DNA from: an uncultured Kiloniellaceae bacterium
GTDB lineage: Bacteria; Pseudomonadota; Alphaproteobacteria; Kiloniellales; Kiloniellaceae
Length of the DNA stretch: 64,000 nt
Direction of reading: 5' to 3'
NCBI GenBank assembly: GCA_947493695.1
Contig: CANLSF010000005.1
Span: 248,001 to 312,000 of the forward strand
Numbering within the stretch: the first letter of the stretch is position 1; every line of letters begins with the position of its first letter. The position numbers and the translations under genes are program-made. Below the pieces are notes generated by a model. That model saw only the letters and a program-made list of their open reading frames with translations. It was not told where the DNA came from and made no database searches. Below, piece by piece: positions 13,909-30,937 of this stretch.

Positions 13909-16900
13909 TTACGGCGTTGCGTCGCTTAGGTTCGTGACCTTGGCCAGTGCGGTTTTAAGAGCCGGTATGGCAGAAACCAGACCTACACGCTCTGCGTCCT
14001 CGCAGAGACCACGCAGGCTTTCCAGTTCGCCGCCATCGCGCAACCCGCGCCCGAAATCAGCCAGGGCACGCCCACGGGCCACGTAATAGGCGCTCCAGGG
14101 CATCGGCTCCGTGCTTTTGGAATAAGCCTCCAGAGCGTTGGCGTAACGATCCGCCTCATCCCAGTCCTCGCTGTCCAGAGCCGCATCGATAGCGTTTTGA
14201 TAGAACTGCAGGTAGTTGTGACTCACACAACGCTCCTGCAGCATCGCCTCGCCTTCAGTCAGCGCCCACTTCCTCAATGCGATATCCTTGGTTTCCACCG
14301 CGAGGGTAGAGAGAATCCAGGGTGTCCCGTAGGTCTGCGCGCCGGATGCAATCCGATAGGCCTCCAGCAGGCGATCTTCAGCACGATCTCCCTCTGCCCG
14401 GCGTGCATTCGCCTGGGCCATATGCATCAGGCTTTCGGCCTCAAACACGATTGAACCCAGTTGCCGCGCCAGGTTACGGCCGCGCTCCGCATGCTCATAG
14501 GCCGAGGTCAGCTTGTCACGGTAGAGATCTGTGGGACCAATCACCAGATGACCAAGCATCTGCGCGCGATAGTTATTGACCTGCAGTGCGATCTCGATCG
14601 CCTTGTGACCGTCTTCCTCACAGCGCTCAAGATCCAGCAGATAAAAAGCGATCATCGCGCGCATCGGCAGATTCACGCAGAGAAGTTCGCGCACATTCTC
14701 CTTCTCACAGAGTTCAATACACTGGTCGAAGTAGTCGTAGGATGTCTTGAACCAGCCTCGCTGGTAGTAAGCATCTCCCAGGCCACTCAGAGCACGCGCC
14801 TCGTCCAGAATCGAGCCACTGCGCCGTGCCGCAAGGATGGCGCCCTCGTGCGCTTCCAGGCACTCGTCCACACGCCCCAGAGGGAAATAGATACTGCCGG
14901 TCAGAGAGTAGATACGGGCGAGGCTGCGGTCGTCGTCACAACGCAAGGCCGCCTCTTCCGCACTCCCAAGAACCTCCAGCGCGCGTTCAAACTCATTCAT
15001 CAGACGCAGACCCTCGGCCATACCGGTCCAGGCTTTGCACTTTTCCCCGTCCGTCTCGGCGTAGGTCATCGCACTCTCGTAGACAGCAACCGACTCACTC
15101 ACACTGCCGGGTGCGCGCAAAAGAAAGCCACGGAGGAGCGAAAGGTCGTAACTCAGAACCCGGTCGCTGGATTGCTCAAGACCGCGCGATGCCAACTCCA
15201 ACGCCGTACCGAAGTGATATTTTGCAGCAGCGAAACGAGCAGCCTGAAGGATCGCCGCAACCGCGTCGGGGCTGTCCGCTCGATCCAGGTGGTCCGCATA
15301 GAGAATGGCGTTCTGTTCTTTGAAGAGTCTCGAAGCCTCGATGTGCATCCTGTCACGCTCGGACTTCAGAATGGCGCCGTAGATCGCTTCATGTATCAGT
15401 GCATGGCAGAACGAGAGCTCGTCATCTCCCTCTTGACGCAGGATGGCGATGTCCATGAGCCGTGCACAATCATAATCCGGATCGCGAAGACTCTCTCGTA
15501 GTTCCTCCAGGCCAAATCTCTGTCCCAGGACGGAAGCCATATTCAAGGCGTGTTTATCGCTGGCGGACAAGACGTCCAGCCGTGCAAGGACGATTGACTG
15601 GATCGATCCCGGCAACTCACTCGCCTGGTGGCCGTGAGCGCGCAGCAATTGATCCAGAAACAGAGGATTGCCTTCGGAACGCGCGATGCAAGCCTGCTGA
15701 TAGGAAGCGTCGAGGTCCCTGTAATGGAGCGTGAGCTCCACACACTCGACATCCGAAAGAGGCATCAGATCCAAAGTGGTCAAAGGCACGCCTTGCGCCG
15801 CAGTTCGCCATCCACGATCGAGCGGATCTTCGATGACTCGCGAAGTCATCAGCAGAACCACAGATGAATCGCGGATCTGCGCCGCAATTCCAGAGAGGAT
15901 CTCGAGAGTACGACCATCCGCCCAGTGAACATCGTCAACCAGGATCAGGACCGGCTGCGCCTCGCAGCGCCATTTGATGAGGTTCCCCAGCAAACGAATT
16001 TTGTTGCGCAACCTTGTCGAGCTTTCCATTCCTTCGTGCAGTGACTCAAGCTCTGCAGGCTGCTGCAGATCCAAAATGTCGTAGAGAAACACCCGGGCGT
16101 CCTTCGGCACCCATCCCTCCATAACTGCGCTTTCAAAAGCAGCGTCCGCTTGTGCGGCGTCCACGCCCCACGGCAGATGCAGCAGTGAAAGCGTAATGCT
16201 CTTCAACGCGCCACGACCACGTTCAGCTCCAAAGTCCTGGAGCCGCCCTACATGGCACGCGTAGTCATGCTGCTTCGCAACGCGTTGAAACTCTCCCGTC
16301 AAACGGCTTTTGCCGATCCCTGCCTCGCCGCGCAGGTAAACCACGCGCCCTTTGCCAGATTGCGCAGAGCTCTTGGCAATGCTGGTAAACTGATCGAGCT
16401 CGAATTCCCGCCCGACAAAGCCGGTCTCTTCGCCGTCAGCTTTCTCCCGGGACAACAACTTAAGGCGCCAGGCTTTGGTCTCATGGGGTATGCCATGAAT
16501 GTCCAGACCATCCATGAGTTCGCCCTGAACGGCATGTGCCACTGAATGATAAAAGCTGTCGGAAACGACAATCTCGGACGGCCCGGCCAGATCCTGTAAA
16601 CGCGCAGCAAGGTTCACCGCTTCGCCGAGTACGGTATAGGCGCGGTGCAGCCGGCTGCCGGTTTTGCTGGCGATGACCTGCCCGCTCGCCATGCCGATAT
16701 GAACTTTGAGTTCACGCCCGACTTCTTCCGAGAGAGCCGCGACACGTTGGCGGATCTCAAGGGCCGCGCGCATTGCGCGTTCGGAATCATCGCTATGAGC
16801 AACCGGCGCGCCGAAGATCGCCATAACATTGTCGCCCATATGTTTGTCGATTGTACCGCCGTAATGGGTGATGACCTCATCGGTGACCTCGAAATAGCGC

Positions 16901-17913
16901 GTGAGCAGCATATGCATGTCTTCCGCCCAGAGCTGCCCGGCTAGAGCCGTGAAATTCGAGAGATCGGCAAACATGACCGCCACATGCCGCAATTCTGCGG
17001 TCGGAACATCCGGTTGCGGCCGGTCACTCGCCCGGCGTTTCGGGTTAGGGTCGCCAGACGCATCGTCGGATTTTGCATGAGCGGAGGGCAGACCCTCCTT
17101 GGCACGGGCCTGGTCCCCGGTTTCCTGGGCCTCATCAACAGGGAACCCGGGCTCCTTTTCGGCCCTTTGAGGGGCAGAACGGCGGCGCTCCAGGATGGCA
17201 CGATACAACTCTTCCGTTTCACCGGCTGGCGCCACCTCAAGTTCCCTGTGCAACACGTCTCGGCAAATCTGATACTGGCGCAAAGCGTCGTTTAACTTGC
17301 CCTGATCCGCGAGTAGGCTCATCAAACGCCGGTGTCCGTCCTCATTCAGAGGATCGTGGCGCAGCAAAGAAGTCGCAACTTCGACGGCTCGCTCCAGTTG
17401 ACCATCACGCGCGAGCAGATCGCTCAAACGCTCCAATGCCCCCAGCGCCATTTGCCGATAGCGCCGCTGCTCCGTCACAAGCCAGTCTTCGAATTCCGGC
17501 GCGCTCACCGACAGGTTCTGCAGCAAATCACCTCGATAAAGGGCGGCTGCACTTGTCAGGTTTTCGATGGTGTCATCTTGCACCAACTGCTCGAACTCAG
17601 ACACGTCGACATGGATAGCCGCACTGGTCAACACGACGAACTCGCTATCTGCGAGTAAAAGCTTGTCAACGTCAGCCGGCATGCACTTACGCAGGGTCAT
17701 GAGAGCTTGCCGCAAGCTCGATCTGGCTTGAGCATCTCCGCTGTTCCCCCAAAACAGGGATGCCAGCATATCGCGGGATTGGGGTATTCCCTGCATCAGC
17801 GCGAGATAACTCAGGAGCGCACGTGCCTTCTTCGCCGAAACGGCGATCGGGCAGCCCTCTTCCGTCTCAAACCGAAAACCACCTAACAGCTGCATTCGCA
17901 TGCTTGGCATCAT
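13909..17913 (-). CDS. BTAD / adenylate cyclase / AAA ATPase / TPR multidomain signalling protein
   Basis: About 1,330 residues. In the longest frame (from 17976): an OmpR-type wHTH plus BTAD transcription-activator domain (about 28-265), a basic linker, a class III nucleotide cyclase domain (330-505) with metal aspartates D338 (FADLS) and D382 (HMGDNV), then a STAND/AAA module with Walker A GEAGIGKS (K556) and Walker B LILVDDVHWAD, and a long C-terminal TPR array. The cyclase metal residues are intact, so cAMP synthesis is plausible. Start M22/M23 follows AGGA; the frame extends to a TTG with no ribosome site. Convergent with moaA. Ligand and target genes cannot be told from sequence. Confidence 0.85.
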   Translation of the reverse strand: MMPSMRMQLLGGFRFETEEGCPIAVSAKKARALLSYLALMQGIPQSRDMLASLFWGNSGDAQARSSLRQALMTLRKCMPADVDKLLLADSEFVVLTSAAIHVDVSEFEQLVQDDTIENLTSAAALYRGDLLQNLSVSAPEFEDWLVTEQRRYRQMALGALERLSDLLARDGQLERAVEVATSLLRHDPLNEDGHRRLMSLLADQGKLNDALRQYQICRDVLHRELEVAPAGETEELYRAILERRRSAPQRAEKEPGFPVDEAQETGDQARAKEGLPSAHAKSDDASGDPNPKRRASDRPQPDVPTAELRHVAVMFADLSNFTALAGQLWAEDMHMLLTRYFEVTDEVITHYGGTIDKHMGDNVMAIFGAPVAHSDDSERAMRAALEIRQRVAALSEEVGRELKVHIGMASGQVIASKTGSRLHRAYTVLGEAVNLAARLQDLAGPSEIVVSDSFYHSVAHAVQGELMDGLDIHGIPHETKAWRLKLLSREKADGEETGFVGREFELDQFTSIAKSSAQSGKGRVVYLRGEAGIGKSRLTGEFQRVAKQHDYACHVGRLQDFGAERGRGALKSITLSLLHLPWGVDAAQADAAFESAVMEGWVPKDARVFLYDILDLQQPAELESLHEGMESSTRLRNKIRLLGNLIKWRCEAQPVLILVDDVHWADGRTLEILSGIAAQIRDSSVVLLMTSRVIEDPLDRGWRTAAQGVPLTTLDLMPLSDVECVELTLHYRDLDASYQQACIARSEGNPLFLDQLLRAHGHQASELPGSIQSIVLARLDVLSASDKHALNMASVLGQRFGLEELRESLRDPDYDCARLMDIAILRQEGDDELSFCHALIHEAIYGAILKSERDRMHIEASRLFKEQNAILYADHLDRADSPDAVAAILQAARFAAAKYHFGTALELASRGLEQSSDRVLSYDLSLLRGFLLRAPGSVSESVAVYESAMTYAETDGEKCKAWTGMAEGLRLMNEFERALEVLGSAEEAALRCDDDRSLARIYSLTGSIYFPLGRVDECLEAHEGAILAARRSGSILDEARALSGLGDAYYQRGWFKTSYDYFDQCIELCEKENVRELLCVNLPMRAMIAFYLLDLERCEEDGHKAIEIALQVNNYRAQMLGHLVIGPTDLYRDKLTSAYEHAERGRNLARQLGSIVFEAESLMHMAQANARRAEGDRAEDRLLEAYRIASGAQTYGTPWILSTLAVETKDIALRKWALTEGEAMLQERCVSHNYLQFYQNAIDAALDSEDWDEADRYANALEAYSKSTEPMPWSAYYVARGRALADFGRGLRDGGELESLRGLCEDAERVGLVSAIPALKTALAKVTNLSDATP

Positions 17914-18111
17914 CAATTCCTGCGTCCCACTTCCGATTAGCAAACACGGCGGGCGCGTCGGATATTCCATCGGCAAAGAAAAAAATTATCCCAGAGCAAT
18001 CTCAATCAATCTGCTGGGACGAAGTACATTTAAAAATAGCGGCCCATGCAGATATTGTTCGCACTAAAACAAATGCAAGAGCGGGAACAGTATACGCCAG
18101 AGTGTGCTCCG

Positions 18112-20613: not shown

Positions 20614-21681
20614 TCAGCTCCTAATCAGAGTCACACCCTGGTGCGATAGACGCACAGAGACGTCACTTTCCCTGGGAATGGGCTGCACGACCCCACCATC
20701 AATAACAAACAACTCACCAATCGGTGTTTCAACACTGTACTCGATATGACTGCCCAGATAGGTCGCCTTACGGACCACCCCACGCAGCCCATCGCCTGAA
20801 TCCTGCACTGCCAGCCCGATCGCCTGCGGGCGAATCGCGATACGGGCCGGGCCTCGTTCCATACCTCTGGCGGGTAGCTTGAGCTCAATTCCGCCGATTG
20901 TGACCTCAGCGTCGGGTCCGTCCACAGCCAGTATCTCGGCATCGACCAGGTTGGCGTCGCCGATAAAGTCAGCCACGAAGAGATCCGCCGGTTCATCGTA
21001 AAGCTCTCGCGGAGAGCCCTCCTGCGCGATCCGGGCCTGATTCATGACAATGATGCGATCTGAGACCGCCAATGCTTCCTCCTGGTCATGAGTAACGTAA
21101 ACAGACGTCAAACCAAGGTTTTGCTGAATTTCGCGGATTTCCTCCCGCACCCTGCGCCGGAGCTTGGCATCAAGGTTCGACAGAGGTTCATCGAACAGCA
21201 GCACCTGCGGCTCCAGCACCAGTGCCCGCGCAACCGCTACACGCTGCTGCTGTCCGCCAGAGAGCTCACTGGGAAGGCGATCGCCGTAACCCTTCAGACC
21301 TACCAGCGCCAAACCGTCCTCTGCCCGGCCACCAACTTCGGATTTCGCCATCCCACTGACTCGCAGGCCGTAGGACACATTCTCCAGCACCGTCATGTGC
21401 GGGAAAAGCGCGTAGGACTGGAACACCATACTGACATCACGGTCCGTGGCCGGTAACGACGTCACATCCTGATCGCCAATGAGGATACGGCCGTTGCTTG
21501 CCATTTCGAGACCGGCAATCATCCGCAGCGTGGTGGTTTTACCGCATCCACTCGGTCCGAGCAAAGTAACGAGCGAGCCTGCCTCCACCCGGAAGGAGAC
21601 CTGATCGACCGCAACCACGGCACCAAAGGCCTTGGTGACCGCGTCGAAACTGACCGAAGCCGCTTTGCTTGCGATTTTCAT
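20614..21681 (-). CDS. ABC transporter ATP-binding protein (FbpC/AfuC-like)
   Basis: 355 residues. Walker A GPSGCGKTT, Q-loop VFQSYALFPHMTV, signature LSGGQQQRVAVARAL, Walker B VLLFDEPLSNLD and switch histidine VTHDQEEA are all intact; a C-terminal TOBE-type domain (about 245-350) follows. It powers import by the permease encoded upstream, whose stop overlaps this ATG (ATGA). It belongs to the Fe3+/phosphate-sugar/spermidine importer group. The substrate is discussed under the binding protein. Confidence 0.9.
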   Translation of the reverse strand: MKIASKAASVSFDAVTKAFGAVVAVDQVSFRVEAGSLVTLLGPSGCGKTTTLRMIAGLEMASNGRILIGDQDVTSLPATDRDVSMVFQSYALFPHMTVLENVSYGLRVSGMAKSEVGGRAEDGLALVGLKGYGDRLPSELSGGQQQRVAVARALVLEPQVLLFDEPLSNLDAKLRRRVREEIREIQQNLGLTSVYVTHDQEEALAVSDRIIVMNQARIAQEGSPRELYDEPADLFVADFIGDANLVDAEILAVDGPDAEVTIGGIELKLPARGMERGPARIAIRPQAIGLAVQDSGDGLRGVVRKATYLGSHIEYSVETPIGELFVIDGGVVQPIPRESDVSVRLSHQGVTLIRS

Positions 21682-23894
21682 GCTGTTTTGCTCTCCGCCG
21701 CGGGCATTTTAACGCCACTGTTCTCGCTTCGCCGTTTGATCCGCCGTTCGCCGACCGCCAGCTGCACGAGGGAAATAGCCGCCAGCATGACTAGGATCAG
21801 GACCGAAGAATAGGCAATAGCCAGTCCGTAGTCGTTGTTCTCGACCCGCCCGATAATGTAGGAGGTCGCCATATCGTAGTTTGCGCTCACCAGGAAGATC
21901 ACCGCGGAAATCGCCGTGATCGCGCGCACGAAGCTGTATACCAGTGCAGCGACAATCGCCGGACGCAACAAGGGCAGAATGACCTTGCGCACAGTCATGA
22001 AACTGGTCGCCCCCAGAGTTAGCGAGGCCTCATCGAGGCTTTTATCCAGCTGGCTCATGGAAGCGATGCCTGCGCGGACGCCGACGGGCATGTTTCGAAA
22101 GATGAAACAGATGACCAGGATCACGCCGGTACCGGTTAACTCGATCGGTGGGATATTGAAGGCCAGGACATAACTGACACCGATCACGGTGCCTGGAATA
22201 GCAAAGCTCAGCATGGTACCGAACTCGAAGGCGTTCTTGCCCGCGAACCTCTGGCGCACCAGCAGGTAGGCCGTAACCAGTCCGATGGCGGCGGTCAGGG
22301 GCGCCGAAACGCCAGCAATGATCATAGTGGTCCCGAAGGAGTTCCAGGCCGAGCCGGTCCAGAGCAATCCGCCGTCCCCCGAAGAAATGGAGAATGCGGA
22401 AATATAGTGTCGCAGAGTCAGACTGTGATCTCTGCCCCAGGTCTCGACAAATCCGCCGAAGACGATCATGACATAAATCACGACAGTCAGAACCGCCCAG
22501 GGAACGGCGGTGCCGTAAACCAGCCAGGTCAATCGTTTGGGCAGATAGGGATGAGCGCCCGAATCTCCCTTGCCGGTGACTGTTGTGTAGGATTTTTTCC
22601 CGAGCCAGCGGCGCTGAGCATAAAAGGCCGAAAGCGTGAAGCCGAGCAACACCAACGCCAGAACTGCCGCCCGGCCCTGATCGTTTTGCGCCCCAACGAT
22701 CGCAAAGAAGATCTCGGTGGAGAGCACGTCATAGTTCCCGCCCAGAACCAGCGGATTTCCGAAATCGGCCATACTTTCGATAAAGCCCAGCAGGAATGCA
22801 TTGGCGAGGCCCGGGCGCATCAAGGGTAAGGAAATGGTCGCAAAGGTCGTCCAGCGATCTGCGCGCAGTGTCTGCGCGGCCTCTTCCATCGAGGGACTGA
22901 TACCTTCGACAACCCCGATCAGCACCAAAAAGGCGATGGGCGTGAAAGCCAGCATCTGTGCGAACCAGATACCCGGAAGTCCGTAGATCCAACGTCCGGC
23001 GGGGATCCCCAGCAAGTCACTGGCAAATTGGGTAACACTGCCGGACCGGCCAAACAGCAAAATGATTGCGAGACCAATCACAAATGGCGGCGTGATGATA
23101 GGCAGGACCGTCAGCGCCCGAATTAGCTTCTTGGCCCGAAAACGCGTTCGCGTCACCACGAGGGCGAACGCCAGGCCCAGGGTTGTCGTCCCCGCCCCTA
23201 CCGTGACCGCGAGAAACAGGGAATTCCAGGCCGCGCCACAGGAAACATTGCTGCTCAGACACCCCAGACCCCAGATCTTCTTATCAAAGAACTTGACCAC
23301 AAAAGCGGACGGCTCGTAGAGGCCCGCATCGTTCTTCAAAGCGCTGAGCAGAATTTGAATGACCGGAAAGAGAATGAAGATGCCGACAAGAGCAATGACC
23401 AGGCCGATGGATCCGACCACGAAGACATCGCCGTTGATTGCGCCGCGCGCCGCGATGCCCTGGGTCAAAAAGAACAGGAAGGCTGCAGAGGTCAGCAAAG
23501 CTCCATAGCCGAGACCGAATTGTCGTTGGCCCAAAGGACCGAAAAGCTGTTCGAGAGTTGAAAACTCCCAACCGTCGATCCCGATGGTAAAGCCCTGAAG
23601 CCCGACGTACGCAAGCCCGCCTATGCCTGAAATCAGGAGAAGATTGGCAAAGAAGGGATCGTTTCTGGCTCGCCCGAACAATCCCAAAGGCAGGAGTAGG
23701 AACAGGCTGATGGGTGCAAGCCAGATCTTGTCATCCACCACCGCCTGAAGAACGCCAGGCGCGTAGTCGCTGTCGAGTGGATACCCGTCGAGCAACCACT
23801 CAAAGACCCAGAAGCCGTCCTCGATGGCGTACCAGGGCAGGATCGCAAAACCGAGCCAGCCCACAGCCAGCCAAAGAGCAACGGTTCTATTCAT
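21678..23894 (-). CDS. ABC transporter permease, two-module FbpB/AfuB type
   Basis: 738 residues, mostly hydrophobic. An N-terminal part with about four membrane helices precedes two binding-protein-dependent permease modules, each with its EAA-type loop (EEAAQTLRADRWTTF and DEASLTLGATSFMTV). A single polypeptide thus forms the whole channel. Ferric permeases of the FbpB type are about 500-550 residues, while AfuB-type sugar-phosphate permeases are near 700, so the size favours the latter. Overlaps the ATPase gene by four bases. Confidence 0.88.
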   Translation of the reverse strand: MNRTVALWLAVGWLGFAILPWYAIEDGFWVFEWLLDGYPLDSDYAPGVLQAVVDDKIWLAPISLFLLLPLGLFGRARNDPFFANLLLISGIGGLAYVGLQGFTIGIDGWEFSTLEQLFGPLGQRQFGLGYGALLTSAAFLFFLTQGIAARGAINGDVFVVGSIGLVIALVGIFILFPVIQILLSALKNDAGLYEPSAFVVKFFDKKIWGLGCLSSNVSCGAAWNSLFLAVTVGAGTTTLGLAFALVVTRTRFRAKKLIRALTVLPIITPPFVIGLAIILLFGRSGSVTQFASDLLGIPAGRWIYGLPGIWFAQMLAFTPIAFLVLIGVVEGISPSMEEAAQTLRADRWTTFATISLPLMRPGLANAFLLGFIESMADFGNPLVLGGNYDVLSTEIFFAIVGAQNDQGRAAVLALVLLGFTLSAFYAQRRWLGKKSYTTVTGKGDSGAHPYLPKRLTWLVYGTAVPWAVLTVVIYVMIVFGGFVETWGRDHSLTLRHYISAFSISSGDGGLLWTGSAWNSFGTTMIIAGVSAPLTAAIGLVTAYLLVRQRFAGKNAFEFGTMLSFAIPGTVIGVSYVLAFNIPPIELTGTGVILVICFIFRNMPVGVRAGIASMSQLDKSLDEASLTLGATSFMTVRKVILPLLRPAIVAALVYSFVRAITAISAVIFLVSANYDMATSYIIGRVENNDYGLAIAYSSVLILVMLAAISLVQLAVGERRIKRRSENSGVKMPAAESKTA

Positions 23895-23936
23895 CAGGGA
23901 GACGGTCTTTCAAAAACTCGCCAGATCGCGTGTGAA

Positions 23937-23975
23937 TGGAGGCTGATCGGACCGGTTCAGACCAATCAGCCTCCA
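23937..23975 (-). promoter_or_regulatory. Intercistronic hairpin after the binding-protein gene
   Basis: Perfect 11-bp arms TGGAGGCTGAT (23937-23947) and ATCAGCCTCCA (23965-23975) with a 17-base loop, beginning six bases after the binding-protein stop and before the permease. No T-run follows, so it more likely protects the upstream mRNA or partly attenuates, raising binding-protein levels over permease. Confidence 0.6.
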
Positions 23976-23980
23976 CGACC

Positions 23981-25033
23981 TCAACGCGGCAGAGACTTAA
24001 CCTCGTCGTCCCATTTCTTCAGCAGACGTTTGCGTTCCGCTGAAGAACCGTACTTCTTGAAATCGTAGTCGATCAGCTTGATTTCATCGAGCTTCGGCGC
24101 GCTCGGCGATGACTCAGCGGCTTGATTCGACATGACCTGATAAGCCTTCACCTCGAGCGATCGCGACTGCACACCTGCCTTGAGGGCCCAGTCATAGAAC
24201 TTCTTTGCACTCTCGGGATTGCGGGCGCCCTTGATGATGCTCATGGACCCGATCTCGTAACCGGTACCTTCAGCCGGAGCAACGACATTGATCGGAAAGC
24301 CACTGACTGCCTGTTTCACAGCATCATGCATAAAGACAATGCCGATGGTGGTTTCGCCGCGCGCTGCCGCTTTAATCGGAGCCGATCCGGATTTGGTGTA
24401 CTGGTTGATGTTCTTGTGCAGAGCCTTCATGAATTCGAAGCCCTCTTTCTCACCGAAGAGCTGCACAATTGTGGCCAGTGTCGTGTAGGCCGTGCCCGAG
24501 GAGTTCGGGTTCGCCATCTGAACCTCACCCTTGTAGACCGGGTTTGTCAGATCTTTCCAGCTCGCCGGGACCGGCAGGCCCTTTTCCTTGAGGAGCTCAG
24601 TGTTGTAACCGTACCCCAGGCCACCGGCATAGATACCGATGGTCTTATCATTGGCCGATGCGGCCTGGCTCAGCGCCCAGTCGTGAAGCTCACCGCGCAT
24701 GGGCGAGACATAGGCTTCGGTCAACCCCTCTTCCGCCGCCTGCAAGTGAGGGTCGCCTGTGCCGCCCCACCAGATATCGCCCTTCGGATTCCGTGCCTCG
24801 GCCTTGATCTGCGCAAAGGTTTCACCAGAGCTTTTGCGGCTCATGGCGACCTTGATACCGGTTTCCTTCTCAAAGGCCTGCACCATAAGCTGGCACCAGT
24901 CTTCCTGGGCCGAGCAATAGTAGGTCAGTTTGTCAGCTGCAAATGCTGTCGAAGTCGCAAAGCCTGAAAACGTTACCACGGCGGCTGCCGCAGCTCCGAA
25001 AAGCCATTGCGATCTGTTTAAAGTTGCGATCAT
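23981..25033 (-). CDS. Periplasmic substrate-binding protein (FbpA/AfuA-like)
   Basis: 350 residues. A signal peptide of about 32 residues ends TSTAFA-ADK. The mature part carries YYCSAQEDWC, WWGGTGDPHLQAAEEGL and YAGGLGYGYNTELL, typical of family-1 binding proteins annotated as iron(III)-binding. The C-lobe Tyr-Tyr pair that ligates iron in FbpA is not seen; the equivalent stretch reads GIVFMHDAV. Together with the large permease and the divergent inositol-phosphatase gene this points to a phosphorylated sugar or polyol, as for AfuA. GGGAGG lies eight bases before the ATG. Probably under IolR-type control (palindrome at 25192-25209). Confidence 0.87.
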   Translation of the reverse strand: MIATLNRSQWLFGAAAAAVVTFSGFATSTAFAADKLTYYCSAQEDWCQLMVQAFEKETGIKVAMSRKSSGETFAQIKAEARNPKGDIWWGGTGDPHLQAAEEGLTEAYVSPMRGELHDWALSQAASANDKTIGIYAGGLGYGYNTELLKEKGLPVPASWKDLTNPVYKGEVQMANPNSSGTAYTTLATIVQLFGEKEGFEFMKALHKNINQYTKSGSAPIKAAARGETTIGIVFMHDAVKQAVSGFPINVVAPAEGTGYEIGSMSIIKGARNPESAKKFYDWALKAGVQSRSLEVKAYQVMSNQAAESSPSAPKLDEIKLIDYDFKKYGSSAERKRLLKKWDDEVKSLPR

Positions 25034-25191
25034 AACTTATGCCTCCCTGACGACGATATATTTTTGATTTCAAATAGTTATTTGAAATTCCTGCCGCCGC
25101 TTATTATGTTGTGCCTCTCCGGTGAACCTAAGCTCTTGCCGAAAACGCTGATATCGGATTTGCAGAATTTGCTTTCCACAATCTCTTAGGA

Positions 25192-25209
25192 ATGGAATAT
25201 CGTTTCCAT
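25192..25209. promoter_or_regulatory. GGAA-N6-TTCC palindrome (candidate IolR operator)
   Basis: ATGGAA-TATCGT-TTCCAT, an exact 6-bp inverted repeat with 6-base spacer, in the middle of the 288-base region between the binding-protein gene and the phosphatase gene. GGAA-N6-TTCC is the known site of alphaproteobacterial RpiR-type IolR. A second exact copy lies before the RpiR gene in this window. Confidence 0.65.
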
Positions 25210-25321
25210 ACATATTGCAATAAAATTGTCATAAAACTGTAATCTCTATTTTCTTGTAGCGGACCCATTTCACGCCGAGCGTATGCCCATCACACTGGCC
25301 ACAGATTCAAAGTTTCACTGA

Positions 25322-26113
25322 ATGACAAGCAACTCGAATGAACGACGACTTGAAGTCGCCTGCGACATTGCACGGCAAGCCGGCAAGCACGCCCTCTCCT
25401 ATTTCGCCGACCGGGACTCGCTCAACATCGAAGGCAAGGGCGTGCAGGACATGTTCAGCCAGGCTGATGTGGAAACGGAAGTACTCATCCGCGATCGTTT
25501 AGCGGCGGAGTTCCCCGATGACGGTTTTTTCGGCGAAGAGACAGAACCCTCAGGACTGGACTCCTCGAGCGGTACCTGGGTGGTCGACCCCATCGACGGG
25601 ACAGCCTGTTTCGTCGTCGGCATTCCCACCTGGTGTGTTTCCATCGCCTTCATCCGGGACAACCGGATTGAAATTGGTGTGATCTACGATCCCAACACAG
25701 ATGAACTCTTTTCGGCGTCCCATGGCAGGGGCGCATTCCTGAACGGTCAGGCGATATCGGTTGCCAGTGCCCGAGACTTCACCGGTGGGATGACCGGGTT
25801 CAGCTTTTCCCATCGAGCCACACCGGAATCCATCGTGAGCGTTCTTGAGAAACTTCTGAGCCAGGGCGGGATGTTCTACCGCAATGGTTCCGGCGCTCTG
25901 ACACTAGCCTATGTCGCCTGTGGCCGGCTCAATGCCTTTTTCGAGCCGCATATGAATTCCTGGGATTCCAGCGCGGGCATCCTTCTGATCACAGAGGCAG
26001 GCGGTTGGGCCAACGACACGCTCGCTGACGACGGTCTGGTCAAGGGGTCTCTGGTGATGGCTGCTGCGGATGGGCTGGCTGATTCCATGAAGACCCTCAT
26101 ACTGGGTCGTTAA
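25322..26113 (+). CDS. Inositol monophosphatase family protein
   Basis: 263 residues of the Mg-dependent, lithium-sensitive phosphatase fold. The metal ligands are visible: E72/E73 in FFGEE, D89 and D92 in DPIDGT, and D215 in NSWDSSAG. Members dephosphorylate inositol 1-phosphate, histidinol phosphate, 3'-phosphoadenosine phosphates or sugar phosphates; histidinol-phosphatase (HisN) is the main alternative. Its position, divergent from a sugar-phosphate-like importer and near iolG/iolC with shared operator motifs, favours a polyol-phosphate substrate. Lone gene; the next gene is convergent. Confidence 0.88.
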   Translation: MTSNSNERRLEVACDIARQAGKHALSYFADRDSLNIEGKGVQDMFSQADVETEVLIRDRLAAEFPDDGFFGEETEPSGLDSSSGTWVVDPIDGTACFVVGIPTWCVSIAFIRDNRIEIGVIYDPNTDELFSASHGRGAFLNGQAISVASARDFTGGMTGFSFSHRATPESIVSVLEKLLSQGGMFYRNGSGALTLAYVACGRLNAFFEPHMNSWDSSAGILLITEAGGWANDTLADDGLVKGSLVMAAADGLADSMKTLILGR

Positions 26114-26156
26114 AATCTGCACCAAGCATCTGATCTATATTGTTTTTGATCTGCCG

Positions 26157-26729
26157 CTAACTCTTCTTGTCAAACAGCGCCACAATTCGATTTTGCTGGG
26201 TTTCGCTCAAGGTCGGCCAAATTTTGTCCATATTGACCTTAACCTCCTTGGCCCCTGCCAGATAGGCTTTGCCGTACCAGATGTACGCCAGCTCACTCAG
26301 CTCGTCGGCGTCTTTTCGCTCCGGGCTCAGCCCCTGAGCGTACATCCAACCGATCAGCTCCATCGCCTCTTCTTCGCCCGCCTTGGCCTGCTTGATGAGT
26401 TTCTCGACGTCCTTGGGCGCAGCGCGGCCAGATTTCACGCGCTTTGCCAATGCGGTGCGCGCGGCAATGATCTCCGCAGCCGCCTTCGCGATGGCCTCTC
26501 GTTCTTCCGCATCTTTCCTGCGTGCCGCCAAGGCGCCAGCGATCGATTTGGGCACCTCGACCTTGTCAGCAAGATCTTTGCACCAGTCCGGTGTCTCGCC
26601 GTAACTGGCACAGATAAAGCGTTTGGTTAATATGTCGGAGCCCTGCCAATAGTCGTCCGAATAGGACAATGCCTGTGCAGGAGCCGCCCAGAGCACACTC
26701 CAAAGAGTAGCGATCAAAATCAAACGCAT
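26157..26729 (-). CDS. Secreted protein with Sel1-like repeat
   Basis: 190 residues from the chosen ATG at 26729, which begins a clear signal peptide (MRLILIATLWSVLWAAPAQA). The longer frame adds 18 charged residues before it. The mature protein has a helical Ala/Lys/Glu-rich middle (about 60-115) and a Sel1-type pair of helices (EEEAMELIGWMYAQGLS ... ELAYIWYGKAYLAG). It has three cysteines near FICASYGETPDWC. Probably periplasmic; function unknown. It sits between the phosphatase and RpiR genes but on the opposite strand. Confidence 0.7.
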   Translation of the reverse strand: MRLILIATLWSVLWAAPAQALSYSDDYWQGSDILTKRFICASYGETPDWCKDLADKVEVPKSIAGALAARRKDAEEREAIAKAAAEIIAARTALAKRVKSGRAAPKDVEKLIKQAKAGEEEAMELIGWMYAQGLSPERKDADELSELAYIWYGKAYLAGAKEVKVNMDKIWPTLSETQQNRIVALFDKKS

Positions 26730-26929
26730 ATCAACCGGCCGCTTCCTGCGATCCCGTTTCGCCTGGTCCGGATCCAATGACACAAAAGCCCGGATCCCAC
26801 GAACCGGGAAGAGTGCCGTTAAAACTTTAAGATCGCGTTTTTATCCGATTGATTTTAAATAAAATTTTATTCTTTTTCGTGACGCCGAGTTATCACACAT
26901 CTGGCGCTGCTCCATCTATTTCGTTAGCT

Positions 26930-26945
26930 TGGAAAAAATATTCCA
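26930..26945. promoter_or_regulatory. GGAA-N6-TTCC palindrome before the RpiR gene
   Basis: TGGAA-AAAATA-TTCCA, an exact match to the IolR-type motif, ending 18 bases before the RpiR start codon. This position suits autorepression. Confidence 0.65.
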
Positions 26946-26963
26946 TTTTGGCATCGAATTATC

Positions 26964-27821
26964 ATGGCTCAACCAACACCTCCTTCCAGCTACGAAAATC
27001 TGCGCACAGTCATCTCGGGCCGGCACGAGACTCTGAGCAAACGCCTGCGCCAGATTGCGGAGTTCGCGCTTGCCAACCCGAACGACATGGCGCTTGAGAC
27101 CGTCTCCGAAATAGCGAAACGGGCGGCGGTACAGCCTTCCAGCTTGATCCGCTTTTCGAAGGCATTTGGTTTCGATGGTTTCAGCAGCATGCAACGCGTG
27201 TTCCGCGGACGCCTGACGGAACGGCAACCAAGTTATCATCAGCGGCTTCAAGACCTGAAGGAGAATAGCGACGCTCCACTGACAGCCATAAACGTTCTGG
27301 ACCGCTTTACCGAAGCAGCTTCCCATGCGCTCGATCATTTAAGGGAAGAGGCAAGACCGGAACGCCTGGAACATGCCATTGAACTCATGGCCCAAAGCGA
27401 ACGCATCCACATCATCGGACAGCGTCGTGCCTTTCCGGTCGCCGCCTATCTGAACTACATGCTGAGCCATCTGGGTTGCCGGGTCTCACTGATCGACTCA
27501 ATCGGTGGCATGACATTCGAGCAGGCACGAGACATCTCGCCCAAGGACGTACTTCTCGCGATCAGCTTTCAAAGCTATGCGCCGGAATCCGTGGAAATCG
27601 CCACTCAGGCACAGGAACAGGGAACGCCTGTGATCGCCATCACCGACGGCCCCTTGAGCCCCTTCTCCGCGTTGTCGGATGTCTGTTTCGAGGTCGAGGA
27701 GACCCAGGTCGAGTCCTTCCGCTCTCTCTCGGCCTGTATGTGCCTCTCCCTGTCGCTGGTGGTCTGCCTTGGCTACCGATTGGAAAAAACCACCGACTTC
27801 GATGGCCTCTTCAACGGATAA
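26964..27821 (+). CDS. iolR: MurR/RpiR family regulator, likely IolR
   Basis: 285 residues. An N-terminal RpiR helix-turn-helix (about 10-85: ETVSEIAKRAAVQPSSLIRFSKAFGFDGF) precedes a SIS phosphosugar-binding domain (about 125-260: RIHIIGQRRAFPVAAYL). In rhizobia and Caulobacter the inositol regulator IolR is of this family and binds GGAA-N6-TTCC, probably releasing DNA on binding a phosphorylated pathway intermediate. Here the gene is convergent with iolG (3-base gap) and has such a site at its own promoter. Assignment as IolR rests on this context. Confidence 0.82.
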   Translation: MAQPTPPSSYENLRTVISGRHETLSKRLRQIAEFALANPNDMALETVSEIAKRAAVQPSSLIRFSKAFGFDGFSSMQRVFRGRLTERQPSYHQRLQDLKENSDAPLTAINVLDRFTEAASHALDHLREEARPERLEHAIELMAQSERIHIIGQRRAFPVAAYLNYMLSHLGCRVSLIDSIGGMTFEQARDISPKDVLLAISFQSYAPESVEIATQAQEQGTPVIAITDGPLSPFSALSDVCFEVEETQVESFRSLSACMCLSLSLVVCLGYRLEKTTDFDGLFNG

Positions 27822-27824
27822 ACC

Positions 27825-28817
27825 TTACCAAGCCAGCGTGACCGTCCGTTTTTCCTGAAAGGACTGCAGGGCTGCGTCGGCCAATCGTAACGCCGCGTGA
27901 CCATCGTCACCGCCCGGGCTCGGCACGTCACCGGAAGAAACCGCATCGATAAAGGCATCGAGCTCCGCCTTGTAGGCCGCCGCATAGCGTTCGAGGAAAA
28001 AGTACAGGGGCTTGTCTTTCGAAACGCCGGCTTCAGTTGCGGACTCCACCGTTGTCGGCTGATGATTTTCTACACGGAGCATCCCCTTACTGCCGTGAAC
28101 TTCGATGCGCTGATCGTAGCCGTAGGCCGCGCGGCGGCTGTTGCTGATCTGACAGAGGCGACCACCTGCGGTTCGAAGGGTCACCAGGGCGCTGTCGACA
28201 TCACCTGCCTCCGCGATGGCCGGATCAACGAGACAGCTGGCTGTCGCCGTCACCTCGAGCGGCTCTTCTCCCAGCAACCAGCGCGCTATGTCCAGGTCAT
28301 GGATCATCATGTCACGAAAGAGACCTCCCGAAACTTTGATGTACGAGAGTGGCGGCGGGGCAGGATCACGGCTGGTAATCGAGACCATTTCGACATCGCC
28401 GATTTCGCCTTCGGTCACTCTTCTCCTTAGCGCGGCAAAGCTTGGATCGAAACGCCGATTAAAGGCCAGCGCGAGCGGAACGCCGGCGTCTTTTGCCACT
28501 TCCAGACAGCTCTCAACCCGCTCCAGGCTCAAGTCTATCGGCTTTTCGCAGAAGATCGCCTTACCGACCCGGGCTGAAGCTTCGATCAGATCCGCATGCG
28601 TATCTGTCGAGCTGGCAACGATCACCGCGCCAACCGCCGGATCGGCAAGCGCGGTTTGCGTTGAGGCAACCTGCGCGCCGTATTTCTCCGCGAGCGCCTG
28701 TGCAGCCGCCTCATTGACATCGACCACATAACGCAGCTTTGCGCCTTTATGCAGAGCGATATTCTCGGCATGGATCGCGCCAATCCGTCCGGCGCCAAAC
28801 TGGCAAAATTCGAGCAC
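27825..28817 (-). CDS. iolG: Inositol 2-dehydrogenase IolG
   Basis: Oxidises myo-inositol to scyllo-inosose with NAD+, the first catabolic step. From the GTG at 28817 the protein has exactly 330 residues, the normal family length, and begins with the Rossmann stretch LEFCQFGAGRIGAIHAENIA. AAGGA lies seven bases before this GTG; the frame runs 50 codons further upstream, but that part is the intergenic promoter region. The EKPID motif holds the catalytic lysine; GGLFRDMMIHDLDIARW carries the conserved Asp/His of the GFO/IDH/MocA family. Divergent from iolC. Confidence 0.93.
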   Translation of the reverse strand: MLEFCQFGAGRIGAIHAENIALHKGAKLRYVVDVNEAAAQALAEKYGAQVASTQTALADPAVGAVIVASSTDTHADLIEASARVGKAIFCEKPIDLSLERVESCLEVAKDAGVPLALAFNRRFDPSFAALRRRVTEGEIGDVEMVSITSRDPAPPPLSYIKVSGGLFRDMMIHDLDIARWLLGEEPLEVTATASCLVDPAIAEAGDVDSALVTLRTAGGRLCQISNSRRAAYGYDQRIEVHGSKGMLRVENHQPTTVESATEAGVSKDKPLYFFLERYAAAYKAELDAFIDAVSSGDVPSPGGDDGHAALRLADAALQSFQEKRTVTLAW

Positions 28818-28944
28818 TGTGGTTTCCTTCGTCCCGCTAATCCTGAAGCTGTATTCTACCCTGCCCACCCCTTTTTGTCGGAGCAAAATACGCTCGGGCA
28901 GGATCGCGTGATCAAAATTTATATTCTGAACTTGATAGTCAAAT

Positions 28945-28958
28945 GGAATTTTTGTTTC
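28945..28958. promoter_or_regulatory. Near-match IolR-type motif between iolG and iolC
   Basis: GGAA-TTTTTG-TTTC, one base off the GGAA-N6-TTCC consensus, in the 209-base divergent region; it could serve both promoters. Weaker than the two exact sites. Confidence 0.4.
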
Positions 28959-29026
28959 ATTAGTCAAATTTTTTCACGTAAACCTACAGATCGAGTGAGA
29001 TCAGGAATTTCAGGGAGTCAGCAAAC

Positions 29027-30937
29027 ATGACGGATCGCCGCTTTGATGTTATCGGCATGGGCCGCGCCGGGGTCGACCTCTACGGCGAGCAGATCGGTGG
29101 ACGCTTGGAAGATATGGCGAGCTTCGCCAAGTATGTCGGTGGCAGTCCCTGCAATACCTGCATCGGCGCTGCCCGCCTTGGGCTACGTCCGGCCATGCTG
29201 TCACGGGTTGGCGACGAACACATGGGGCGTTTCATTCGCGAAACGCTCGAAGCCGAAGCCGTCGACACCAGTCATCTCAAGACCGATCAGGAACGCCTCA
29301 CCGCGTTGGTCATTCTGGGCATTCAGGACCGTGAGACCTTTCCCCTCATCTTCTATCGCGAAAACTGTGCCGATATGGCAATCGATCCTGCCGACTTTGA
29401 TCCGGCCTTCATTGCCGAGTCAAAGTGCCTCCTGGTCAGTGGGACGCACTTTTCGACACCCCAGGTCGACAATGCCAGCCGCACGGCCATGCGCTACGCG
29501 CGAGAAGCAGGAACCGGGGTGGCGCTCGATATCGACTACCGTCCGGTCCTCTGGGGCCTGACGTCCCGCGGCCTCGGCGAGCAACGTTTCGTGGCAAGCG
29601 ACTCCGTTACGGCGCACTTGCAATCCATCGTCCCGGACTGCGATCTGATCGTTGGTACGGAGGAGGAGGTCCACATCGCAGGGGGCGACACAGATACGCT
29701 GGCCGCTCTGCGGCAACTCCGTTTACTCACCGATGCCGTCCTGGTGGTCAAACGTGGCCCCATGGGATGTGTCGTTTTCCCAGGCGTCATCCCGGACGAT
29801 ATCGAAGAGGGCATTAAGGGCCCCGGCTTCCCGATCGAAGTCTTCAATGTGCTGGGCGCAGGCGATGCCTTCATGGCCGGCTTCCTGCGCGGCTGGTTGC
29901 GCGACGAATCTTACGAGACCTGCTGCGCCTACGCCAACGCCTGTGGCGCCTTCGCCGTCTCCCGGCACGGCTGCTCACCAGCCTGCCCAAGCTGGGATGA
30001 ACTCGCCGATTTTCTGGAGACCGGCAGTCCGCATTTCAGGCTGCGCGACGACGCCCGGCTGGAGCAACTCCACTGGGCAAGCAACCGGAAGAAGGACTGG
30101 CCGGAGGTCTGTGCCTTTGCATTCGATCATCGCAGCCAGCTGGAGGCGATCGCCGAGCGCCATGGAAGGGACAACGATGCCATCAACCGCTTCAAACGCC
30201 TTGCCTGGGAAGCCGCCCGGGATGCGACGCCGCCGGACGAAGCCGTAAAAGGTATTCTTTGTGATGGGCGCCTGGGACAGGACGCCTTGGACGCTGCGAC
30301 AGGACGCGGGGTGTGGATCGGTCGGCCGATTGAGTTACCAGGCTCCCGCCCGCTTCAGTTTGAGGGTGGTGACAATGTGGCAGCGACCCTGCGGGAATGG
30401 CCCGTTGAACACTGCGTCAAATGTCTGGTTTTCTATCACCCCGACGATCCTGAAGACCTACGACTGGAACAGGAAGCCAGACTGCGCACGCTGTTTGAGG
30501 CTACGCGCAAGGCCCGCTTGGAATTGCTGTTGGAAATCATTCCGCCAAAGGACAGCCCTGTCGATGCAAACACCGTCGCGCGTGCGTTGCAAAAATTTTA
30601 TGACATCGGCGTCTTTCCGGACTGGTGGAAACTTCAGGCGCCGAATTCCGACGAAGCTTGGGATAACATAGCAAAAACCATCACTCTCAATGATCCCTAT
30701 TGCCGCGGCGTCCTGCTCCTGGGTCTGGATGCTCCCGAGGAGGTTTTAGGCGCCGCGTTTACCGCAGCCGCCAAGCAATCCGTCTGCAAAGGCTTCGCCG
30801 TTGGCAGGAGTATCTTCGGTGCACCGGCCGAAGCTTGGTTTGCCGATGATATAGACGATGACGAGGCTGTTGCCGTTATGTCCGGCAACTATTCAAGACT
30901 GATGGGGCTATGGCGCCGGCAGCGCAAAACTGTTTAA
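29027..30937 (+). CDS. iolC: Bifunctional 5-dehydro-2-deoxygluconokinase / 5-dehydro-2-deoxyphosphogluconate aldolase
   Basis: 636 residues. The first half (about 1-330) is a PfkB sugar kinase with GMGRAGVDLYGEQIGG at the start and the catalytic motif NVLGAGDAF (D280). The second half (about 335-636) is the DUF2090 domain, related to aldolases and fused to IolC in many proteobacteria. The protein would phosphorylate 5-dehydro-2-deoxygluconate and may also cleave the product to malonate semialdehyde and dihydroxyacetone phosphate. GGGAG precedes the ATG. iolE, iolD, iolB and iolA are not in this window and probably lie elsewhere. Confidence 0.92.
   Translation: MTDRRFDVIGMGRAGVDLYGEQIGGRLEDMASFAKYVGGSPCNTCIGAARLGLRPAMLSRVGDEHMGRFIRETLEAEAVDTSHLKTDQERLTALVILGIQDRETFPLIFYRENCADMAIDPADFDPAFIAESKCLLVSGTHFSTPQVDNASRTAMRYAREAGTGVALDIDYRPVLWGLTSRGLGEQRFVASDSVTAHLQSIVPDCDLIVGTEEEVHIAGGDTDTLAALRQLRLLTDAVLVVKRGPMGCVVFPGVIPDDIEEGIKGPGFPIEVFNVLGAGDAFMAGFLRGWLRDESYETCCAYANACGAFAVSRHGCSPACPSWDELADFLETGSPHFRLRDDARLEQLHWASNRKKDWPEVCAFAFDHRSQLEAIAERHGRDNDAINRFKRLAWEAARDATPPDEAVKGILCDGRLGQDALDAATGRGVWIGRPIELPGSRPLQFEGGDNVAATLREWPVEHCVKCLVFYHPDDPEDLRLEQEARLRTLFEATRKARLELLLEIIPPKDSPVDANTVARALQKFYDIGVFPDWWKLQAPNSDEAWDNIAKTITLNDPYCRGVLLLGLDAPEEVLGAAFTAAAKQSVCKGFAVGRSIFGAPAEAWFADDIDDDEAVAVMSGNYSRLMGLWRRQRKTV

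Follow-up and report, generated by a model that had tools for sequence, protein, structure and literature searches.

The question raised by this locus is what its importer carries into the cell. The locus lies in a 64,000-nucleotide stretch (hereafter the window) of the 6.46-Mb genome of an uncultured Kiloniellaceae bacterium (GenBank assembly GCA_947493695.1, contig CANLSF010000005.1). Genes for the ATPase, the fused permease and the binding protein of an ATP-binding cassette (ABC) importer are consecutive on the minus strand, and a gene for an inositol-monophosphatase-family (IMPase-family) phosphatase is divergent from them. Beyond the phosphatase gene lie a 208-amino-acid open reading frame (ORF), an RpiR-family regulator gene, iolG on the opposite strand and a gene for an IolC fusion protein (Table 1). 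The original prediction, made from the DNA letters alone, proposed that inositol phosphate or another polyol phosphate is imported here, freed of its phosphate and degraded by IolG and IolC. All of the genes that it named were found as intact ORFs, in the divergent layout that it described. Our best reading, to which we give a probability of roughly 0.6, is that inositol monophosphate would be imported, dephosphorylated in the cytoplasm and broken down by the iol enzymes under the control of IolR.

The binding protein and its predicted ligand

The closest solved sequences of the binding protein were AfuA (4r72-75), VcA0625 (8x1a) and P5PA, all of which bind phosphate esters. The protein scored 320 bits against AfuA and at most 46 bits against ferric-binding proteins. 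Structure prediction, proposed earlier as a check of the pocket, gave an AlphaFold model with a mean pLDDT of 89.4. Its best Foldseek match was AfuA with bound glucose 6-phosphate (G6P) (48% identity, TM score 0.82/0.90 to 4r73); the ‘periplasmic G6P binding protein VcA0625’, P5PA and further forms of AfuA were also among the top matches, and ferric-binding proteins ranked below them at ~16–20% identity. Residues S69, T181, H236, D237 and E260 correspond to S37, T150, H205, D206 and E229 of AfuA, such that all five ligand residues were kept. In the study of Actinobacillus AfuABC (Sit et al. 2015, PMC4546632), mutation of H205, D206 or E229 abolished G6P binding, S37 and T150 held the phosphate, and glucose was not bound (figure legend). 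Equivalents of H205, D206, E229, S37 and T150 were kept in 115, 116, 119, 109 and 119, respectively, of the 119 relatives that we tabulated after excluding 26 rows on short contigs. Because the AfuA pocket residues are retained, a phosphate-ester ligand is supported.

The family has long been annotated as ferric iron importers, and ferric-binding proteins do share the fold at the low identities given above. However, the adjacent Tyr pair of the FbpA type (Y195/Y196 in Haemophilus FbpA, according to the titles of mutant structures) is absent from the C-lobe of the binding protein, as first noticed in the original prediction; its sole YY, as read from the sequence without a residue-by-residue alignment to FbpA, is Y38-Y39, in the first strand of the model. 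Moreover, AfuA, the nearest relative, carries sugar phosphates and not iron (PMC4546632). Judged by sequence, fold and pocket, the protein is predicted to be an AfuA-type organophosphate binder and not an iron binder, in agreement with the earlier assignment of the system to the AfuABC type. Iron import by the window system was rejected on the missing Tyr pair and the AfuA family membership, and we regard it as scarcely conceivable. Import of 2-aminoethylphosphonate by the window system was also rejected: binding-protein models for this compound scored far below cut-off (at best 232.6 bits against 392.75, for PhnS2, TIGR03261), and a scan of the ten genes around the system showed none for phosphonate use.

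The pocket bears more closely on whether the system might import hexose or heptose phosphates (G6P, fructose 6-phosphate) like canonical AfuABC, which binds hexose phosphates with nM affinity, the iol genes being incidental neighbours or the phosphatase acting on hexose phosphates. The mutation-tested contact residues of AfuA are kept and the nearest folds are G6P-binding proteins, as this alternative would have it. Against it, three contact positions of the window protein are unlike those of AfuA and VcA0625: Q replaces T at position 11, S replaces G at position 36, and S replaces I/V at position 186. Among the 119 relatives, Q was found at position 11 in 91, S at position 36 in 107, and S or A at position 186 in 105. 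Furthermore, a phosphatase beside a G6P importer would presumably waste activated sugar, and the importer promoter bears IolR-type operators (see below). Taking these points together, we consider a hexose phosphate cargo unlikely. At the 19 published contact positions compared, the window protein was identical to those of nine iol-linked stretches (L034–L036, L040, L045, L046, L096, L140 and L181).

Operators, inositol genes and phosphatase

A GGAA-N6-TTCC palindrome was defined in the inositol-gene promoters of Caulobacter (Boutte et al. 2008, PMC2597717). Promoter fusions in that study showed that deletion of iolR, or mutation of one motif copy, derepresses iolC, and in other alphaproteobacteria the motif was also reported to precede iolC, idhA and the genes of the inositol importer. 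We found the pattern TGGAANNNNNNTTYCA at three places only in the window: in the intergenic region shared by binding protein and phosphatase, ahead of the RpiR gene, and in the gap separating iolG from iolC. Counting both strands, these gave five matches in the window versus 0.39 expected. The shorter GGAA-N6-TTCC had six window matches, two of them in the locus, with 1.5 expected. The strict 16-base palindrome occurred in 8 copies in the whole genome (4 for a reversed-pattern control); two of the 8 are in this locus, and the other six are inside Pfam-recognised ORFs. The box at 26930 overlaps a mechanical 140-amino-acid antisense ORF yet directly precedes the RpiR start.

These boxes recur in related genomes. 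The 25193 box is kept in congeners, where the importer/phosphatase promoter has two boxes 30 bp apart; one-mismatch second copies stand at this same spacing in congeners L034, L035 and L036, and the iolG/iolC copy TGGAATTTTTGTTTCA is identical in L036. Another genus of this family arranges the genes differently; there, boxes precede the RpiR gene in 7/7 genomes, the binding-protein gene in 6/7 and iolD in 3. We then counted boxes with at most one mismatch upstream of the binding-protein gene, excluding L139 (same contig as L034) and upstream regions below 250 bases. Among rows linked to iol genes, 9 of 26 had such a box, where shuffled sequences gave an expectation of 0.35. The corresponding counts were 1 of 51 for rows with the IMPase only (0.7 expected), 1 of 40 for unlinked rows (0.43) and 0 of 22 for rows on short contigs (0.24). 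The far iolD locus of the window genome, on contig C8, held no exact palindrome in a search that did not extend to near-matches. The RpiR-family regulator is probably IolR, and the IolR-type operators tie both the importer and the phosphatase to inositol.

The inositol genes themselves are well identified. The iolG product passes its NCBIfam cut-off (TIGR04380, 437 bits versus 355) and is the genome’s only match to this model at E ≤ 1e-60. The match begins at residue 53 of the mechanical ORF, and GTG at 28817 is for that reason a likelier start than 28967. The IolC kinase/aldolase passes its cut-off as well (NF047869, 817 bits versus 600). Genes for iolG, IolC and the RpiR regulator all start within 5 kb of the importer and phosphatase.

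The phosphatase keeps the GEE, DPIDGT and WD motifs of its family but falls below the curated cut-offs for SuhB (159 versus 332 bits) and HisN (150 versus 275 bits). In an alignment of 66 sequences, the window included (rows of at least 150 bits and 240–345 amino acids), E72, E73, D89, D92, T94, E208, W214 and D215 were present in all 66, and a stretch E-x-H-(M/I)-N-x-W-D recurred. We take E208 to correspond to E213 of human IMPase. The genome holds four other IMPase-family members.

A larger or different inositol ester, such as glycerophosphoinositol, an inositol bis- or polyphosphate or di-inositol phosphate, would draw on the same inositol evidence, and in relative L162 a glycerophosphodiesterase (GDPD) gene lies directly upstream of the binding-protein gene. 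Nevertheless, the window protein keeps the AfuA-type phosphate cage, and the ten genes scanned around the system, in a search that was not genome-wide, included no phytase or diesterase. Such a larger cargo appears improbable to us.

Linkage with inositol genes among relatives

At the level of the order, binding-protein matches were found in 21 of 61 genomes. The resulting 21 stretches (the window not counted, one 58% paralogue included) had an IMPase gene in 19 and iol genes in 13, as judged by the bit-score thresholds used for all such neighbour counts. Among the 16 stretches of at least 15 kb, 13 had iol genes; with random placement of five gene copies per genome this has a probability of 2e-19, a figure that ignores shared ancestry. 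Gene order and orientation vary. One genus has the RpiR gene, importer, IMPase gene, iolG, iolC and iolD together, and another has iolC-iolG apart from importer-IMPase.

Free inositol could be the cargo of such a system, with the IMPase as a housekeeping or promiscuous enzyme; taken by themselves, the operators of the IolR type and the iol neighbours are compatible with a plain inositol importer. This alternative has to contend with the phosphate contacts S37 and T150, kept in nearly all or all of the tabulated relatives, with the failure of AfuA to bind glucose (PMC4546632), and with a phosphatase gene that shares its intergenic region with the importer and accompanies it in 19 of the 21 stretches. 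We judge it very unlikely.

At the level of the class, 29 of 385 genomes had the binding protein, and 36 further stretches contained iol genes in 9 and an IMPase gene in 14. In L097, iolB, iolE, iolD, iolC, the RpiR gene, iolG, the IMPase gene and the importer are side by side. For genomes outside the order with both genes, iolD was within the fetched stretch in 5 of 20 (chance ~3e-8 for random placement in 4.5 Mb). The iolG product passed the curated cut-off in all three relatives scanned, L048, L097 and L124, the last from the deepest branch of the subfamily tree. Whole-genome counts, in which at most 5 or 3 candidates were scored per genome at E ≤ 1e-80 and 1e-150, placed iolD in 23 of the 29 genomes with the binding protein versus 33 of the 356 without it (Fisher p ~1e-16). 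The control gene xylA, also a sugar gene, was in 4 of 29 versus 20 of 356 (p ~0.1). The importer and the iol genes do co-occur in relatives, contrary to the possibility, raised with the original prediction, that they never do; their clustering exceeds chance placement but is not universal. A tree of the binding proteins, excluding L139 and proteins below 330 bits or outside 300–720 amino acids, did not unite the iol-linked members in one clade. Because its well-supported branches force at least 10 changes (by a quick method, with long branches flagged), iol linkage is either ancient and has been lost many times, or was gained repeatedly.

Several results weigh against the inositol reading. The nine box-bearing iol-linked rows come from two genera of one family and are not nine independent events, and beyond those genera there were only two single weak cases of a box upstream of the binding-protein gene. 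The iolD co-occurrence figure takes no account of phylogeny or genome size. The AfuA-type residues would, on the AfuA analogy, suit hexose phosphates too. No pocket residue in the 119-relative table sets the iol-linked members apart, and unlinked members mostly share the same residues. One iol-linked genus has A at position 9 and D at position 11. Iol-linked L124–L126, on the deepest branch, have D at phosphate-contact position 37 and changes at positions 36, 59 and 60. Because AfuA S37D binds G6P ~200-fold more weakly than wild type (5.5 versus 0.023 µM, PMC4546632), these three proteins may have a different ligand. Finally, the window genome has a second inositol- or rhizopine-like locus, which comes with a ribose-type importer of its own (L065; G000 contig 8, 195000–214900). 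The one full-scoring iolD of the genome lies there, together with iolB and iolE in divergent orientation, two Gfo/Idh genes and genes for a kinase and a LacI-like regulator. Full inositol breakdown by the window genes would need this iolD.

A wider survey adds to these objections. In one public genome collection, at least 586 stretches match a peptide pattern of the binding protein and encode a relative. The figures given here are for the best 80 of these at least 586. Going by their titles, most are records of Rhodobacteraceae type and Granulosicoccaceae, and 58 of them span at least 15 kb. At the thresholds used, the permease was present in 80/80, the ATPase in 71/80 and the IMPase in 38/80, and iol neighbours were present in only 3, one of them a congener already counted. 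The importer instead adjoined genes for a PhnD-type binding protein (15 stretches), a HAD hydrolase (14), a sodium/phosphate (Na/Pi) cotransporter (11) or a histidine phosphatase (8), as counted by clustering with one member per cluster identified by Pfam. In L158 (12683–14889), PhnW and PhnX, which break down aminoethylphosphonate and both exceed their NCBIfam cut-offs, are encoded downstream of the importer and IMPase. Phosphorus-type neighbours of this kind speak for a phosphate-ester cargo, but for general phosphorus use rather than for inositol. The subfamily may be a general organophosphate importer in which some members carry other phosphate esters, and given L158 some may carry aminoethylphosphonate. 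Relatives without iol linkage either use the same ligand as a phosphorus source, with iol genes elsewhere, or the ligands vary.

Extended to the window, this would mean a broad or varied organophosphate or phosphonate importer that serves mainly for phosphorus, the copy in the window genus having merely been put under IolR. The neighbours in many Rhodobacteraceae records and the PhnW/PhnX genes of L158 fit such a view, whereas the strong iolD co-occurrence across the class and the low scores of the aminoethylphosphonate models for the window protein do not. We assign it a low probability.

The tie of importer and phosphatase to inositol that was originally proposed is confirmed and strengthened by operators, recurrent linkage and iolD co-occurrence; 77 of the best 80 named relatives (of at least 586) have no iol neighbour in the stretch, so that some members may differ in cargo. 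As to neighbourhood conservation, iol linkage persists, rearranged, in other genera, but is not universal.

Two observations on the relatives stand apart. A DeoR-type regulator gene adjoined the importer in 16 of the best 80; in L160, L187, L193, L207 and others among the Rhodobacteraceae records, a PhnD-type phosphate/phosphonate transporter, DeoR and HAD genes and often a Na/Pi cotransporter lie beside the AfuABC-type importer, in what looks like a phosphorus-scavenging island. In L108, L110, L111 and L117, a single permease and ATPase are flanked by two or three genes for binding proteins of this subfamily, which suggests that several binding proteins serve one transporter.

Proposed pathway and known systems

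The inositol part of our reading is likely because of the regulatory and linkage evidence, and the phosphate-ester part because of the AfuA-type pocket and the frequent phosphatase partner. From the genes and families, the pocket and active-site residues, the operator sequences, the linkage and the co-occurrence, we infer the ligand, the phosphatase substrate, regulator binding and all fluxes as follows. In the periplasm, the AfuABC-type importer would capture inositol monophosphate or a closely related cyclitol phosphate, its binding protein holding the ring by H236, D237 and E260 and the phosphate by S69, T181 and nearby Ser, Gly and Thr residues. The ester would be moved intact into the cytoplasm, where the divergently transcribed IMPase-family enzyme would strip the phosphate. 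IolG would oxidise the inositol so released to inosose, which the distant IolD and IolE/IolB-like enzymes would then open and rearrange; the product would be split by the IolC kinase/aldolase fusion. The RpiR-type IolR would repress the gene set through the GGAA-N6-TTCC boxes. In this way the cell would use both halves, inositol and phosphate.

AfuABC has the gene layout of the window system, with a two-module permease and one ATPase. The likeness to AfuABC (PMC4546632) and VcA0625 (8x1a) extends to the fold and sequence of the binding protein and to the mutated ligand residues; the window system differs at contact positions 11, 36 and 186 and in having an IMPase partner, iol neighbours and IolR-type operators. 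The pyridoxal-phosphate binding protein P5PA (PMC8427247, 6wce) belongs to the same family, shares Q at AfuA position 11, and is a relative that changed its ligand while the phosphate cage stayed. D206 and E229, both kept in the window protein, are replaced by Ala in P5PA.

IbpA-IatA-IatP of Caulobacter is a ribose-type importer that is not known to have a phosphatase partner, and InoEFGK belongs to a different ABC family with two separate permeases. The Caulobacter system imports free inositol under IolR and resembles ours in its operators, its importer, idhA/iolG and iolC carrying GGAA-N6-TTCC (PMC2597717). InoEFGK resembles ours in proposed role and is annotated in print as an ‘inositol-phosphate transport system’ (PMC12008989, PMC11767280); the original statement that no inositol-phosphate ABC importer had been described does not hold. 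In the Thermotoga inositol regulon InoEFGK is named as ‘inositol’, and the IolR of Thermotoga is a ROK protein (PMC3750489). Beyond the InoEFGK annotations and a mention of a Rhizobium etli ‘myo-inositol 1-phosphate’ transporter, no published inositol-phosphate importer was noticed among the papers listed in our literature searches, which covered few subscription papers and are weak evidence of absence. Nor did we notice, in the literature searched, an AfuABC-type importer coupled to an IMPase, to iol genes and to operators of the IolR type. That coupling is the new part, inositol-phosphate transport having already been named for InoEFGK. In R. etli, RHE_RS10865 (IMPase) and RHE_RS10880 (annotated afuA/fbpA) are near each other by number, possibly representing the cluster of the window in that species, and both were found in minimal-medium cells (PMC9611204).

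Gene layout and significance

The features of the locus are collected in Table 1. The 208-amino-acid ORF had no family match in Pfam or NCBIfam. In a clustering of the fetched relatives its cluster comprised only the three congener stretches; the ORF was seen in this genus alone, and it is probably not part of the import system. Elsewhere in the window (13909–17976), a gene encodes a 1355-amino-acid protein that combines BTAD, nucleotide-cyclase, AAA and TPR domains and looks like an unusual fusion for signalling or regulation.

Table 1. Positions of genes and operator boxes in the window.
Feature	Position	Strand	Basis or remark
ABC ATPase (AfuC/FbpC/PotA-like, TOBE domain)	20614..21681	-	Pfam/NCBIfam; 4-base overlap with permease stop
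Fused permease, 738 amino acids, two BPD_transp_1 modules	21678..23894	-	ORF and Pfam/NCBIfam
Periplasmic binding protein, AfuA family	23981..25033	-	Sequence, pocket residues, AlphaFold model
Degenerate second operator copy, 2 mismatches	25163..25178	none	30 bp from 25193 copy
Perfect palindrome TGGAATATCGTTTCCA, matches GGAA-N6-TTCC operator	25193..25208	none	Binding-protein/phosphatase divergent promoter
IMPase-family phosphatase	25322..26113	+	PF00459, 184 bits
208-amino-acid ORF, function not assigned	26157..26783	-	Between phosphatase and RpiR genes
Perfect palindrome TGGAAAAAATATTCCA, IolR-type operator	26930..26945	none	Directly upstream of RpiR start
RpiR-family regulator with SIS domain, probable IolR	26964..27821	+	Pfam; iol-linked in relatives
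iolG, myo-inositol 2-dehydrogenase (Gfo/Idh/MocA)	27825..28817	-	TIGR04380; mechanical ORF reaches 28967
Operator copy TGGAATTTTTGTTTCA, one mismatch	28944..28959	none	Between iolG and iolC
iolC-type 5-dehydro-2-deoxygluconokinase fused to DUF2090 aldolase (PfkB+DUF2090)	29027..30937	+	NF047869

Use of inositol phosphates is usually seen as extracellular dephosphorylation followed by import of inositol. We tentatively propose, at somewhat less than even odds, that the widespread AfuABC subfamily is a main route of inositol-phosphate import in alphaproteobacteria and works with a dedicated IMPase, serving phosphorus use and, where IolR is in control, carbon use as well. Genes of the subfamily are prone to annotation as transporters of iron or aminoethylphosphonate. 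If our reading is true, these cells would import intact a compound that makes up a major part of the organic phosphorus in soil and water, and a conserved importer of the whole ester would alter what alphaproteobacterial genomes are taken to say about the use of phosphorus and carbon.

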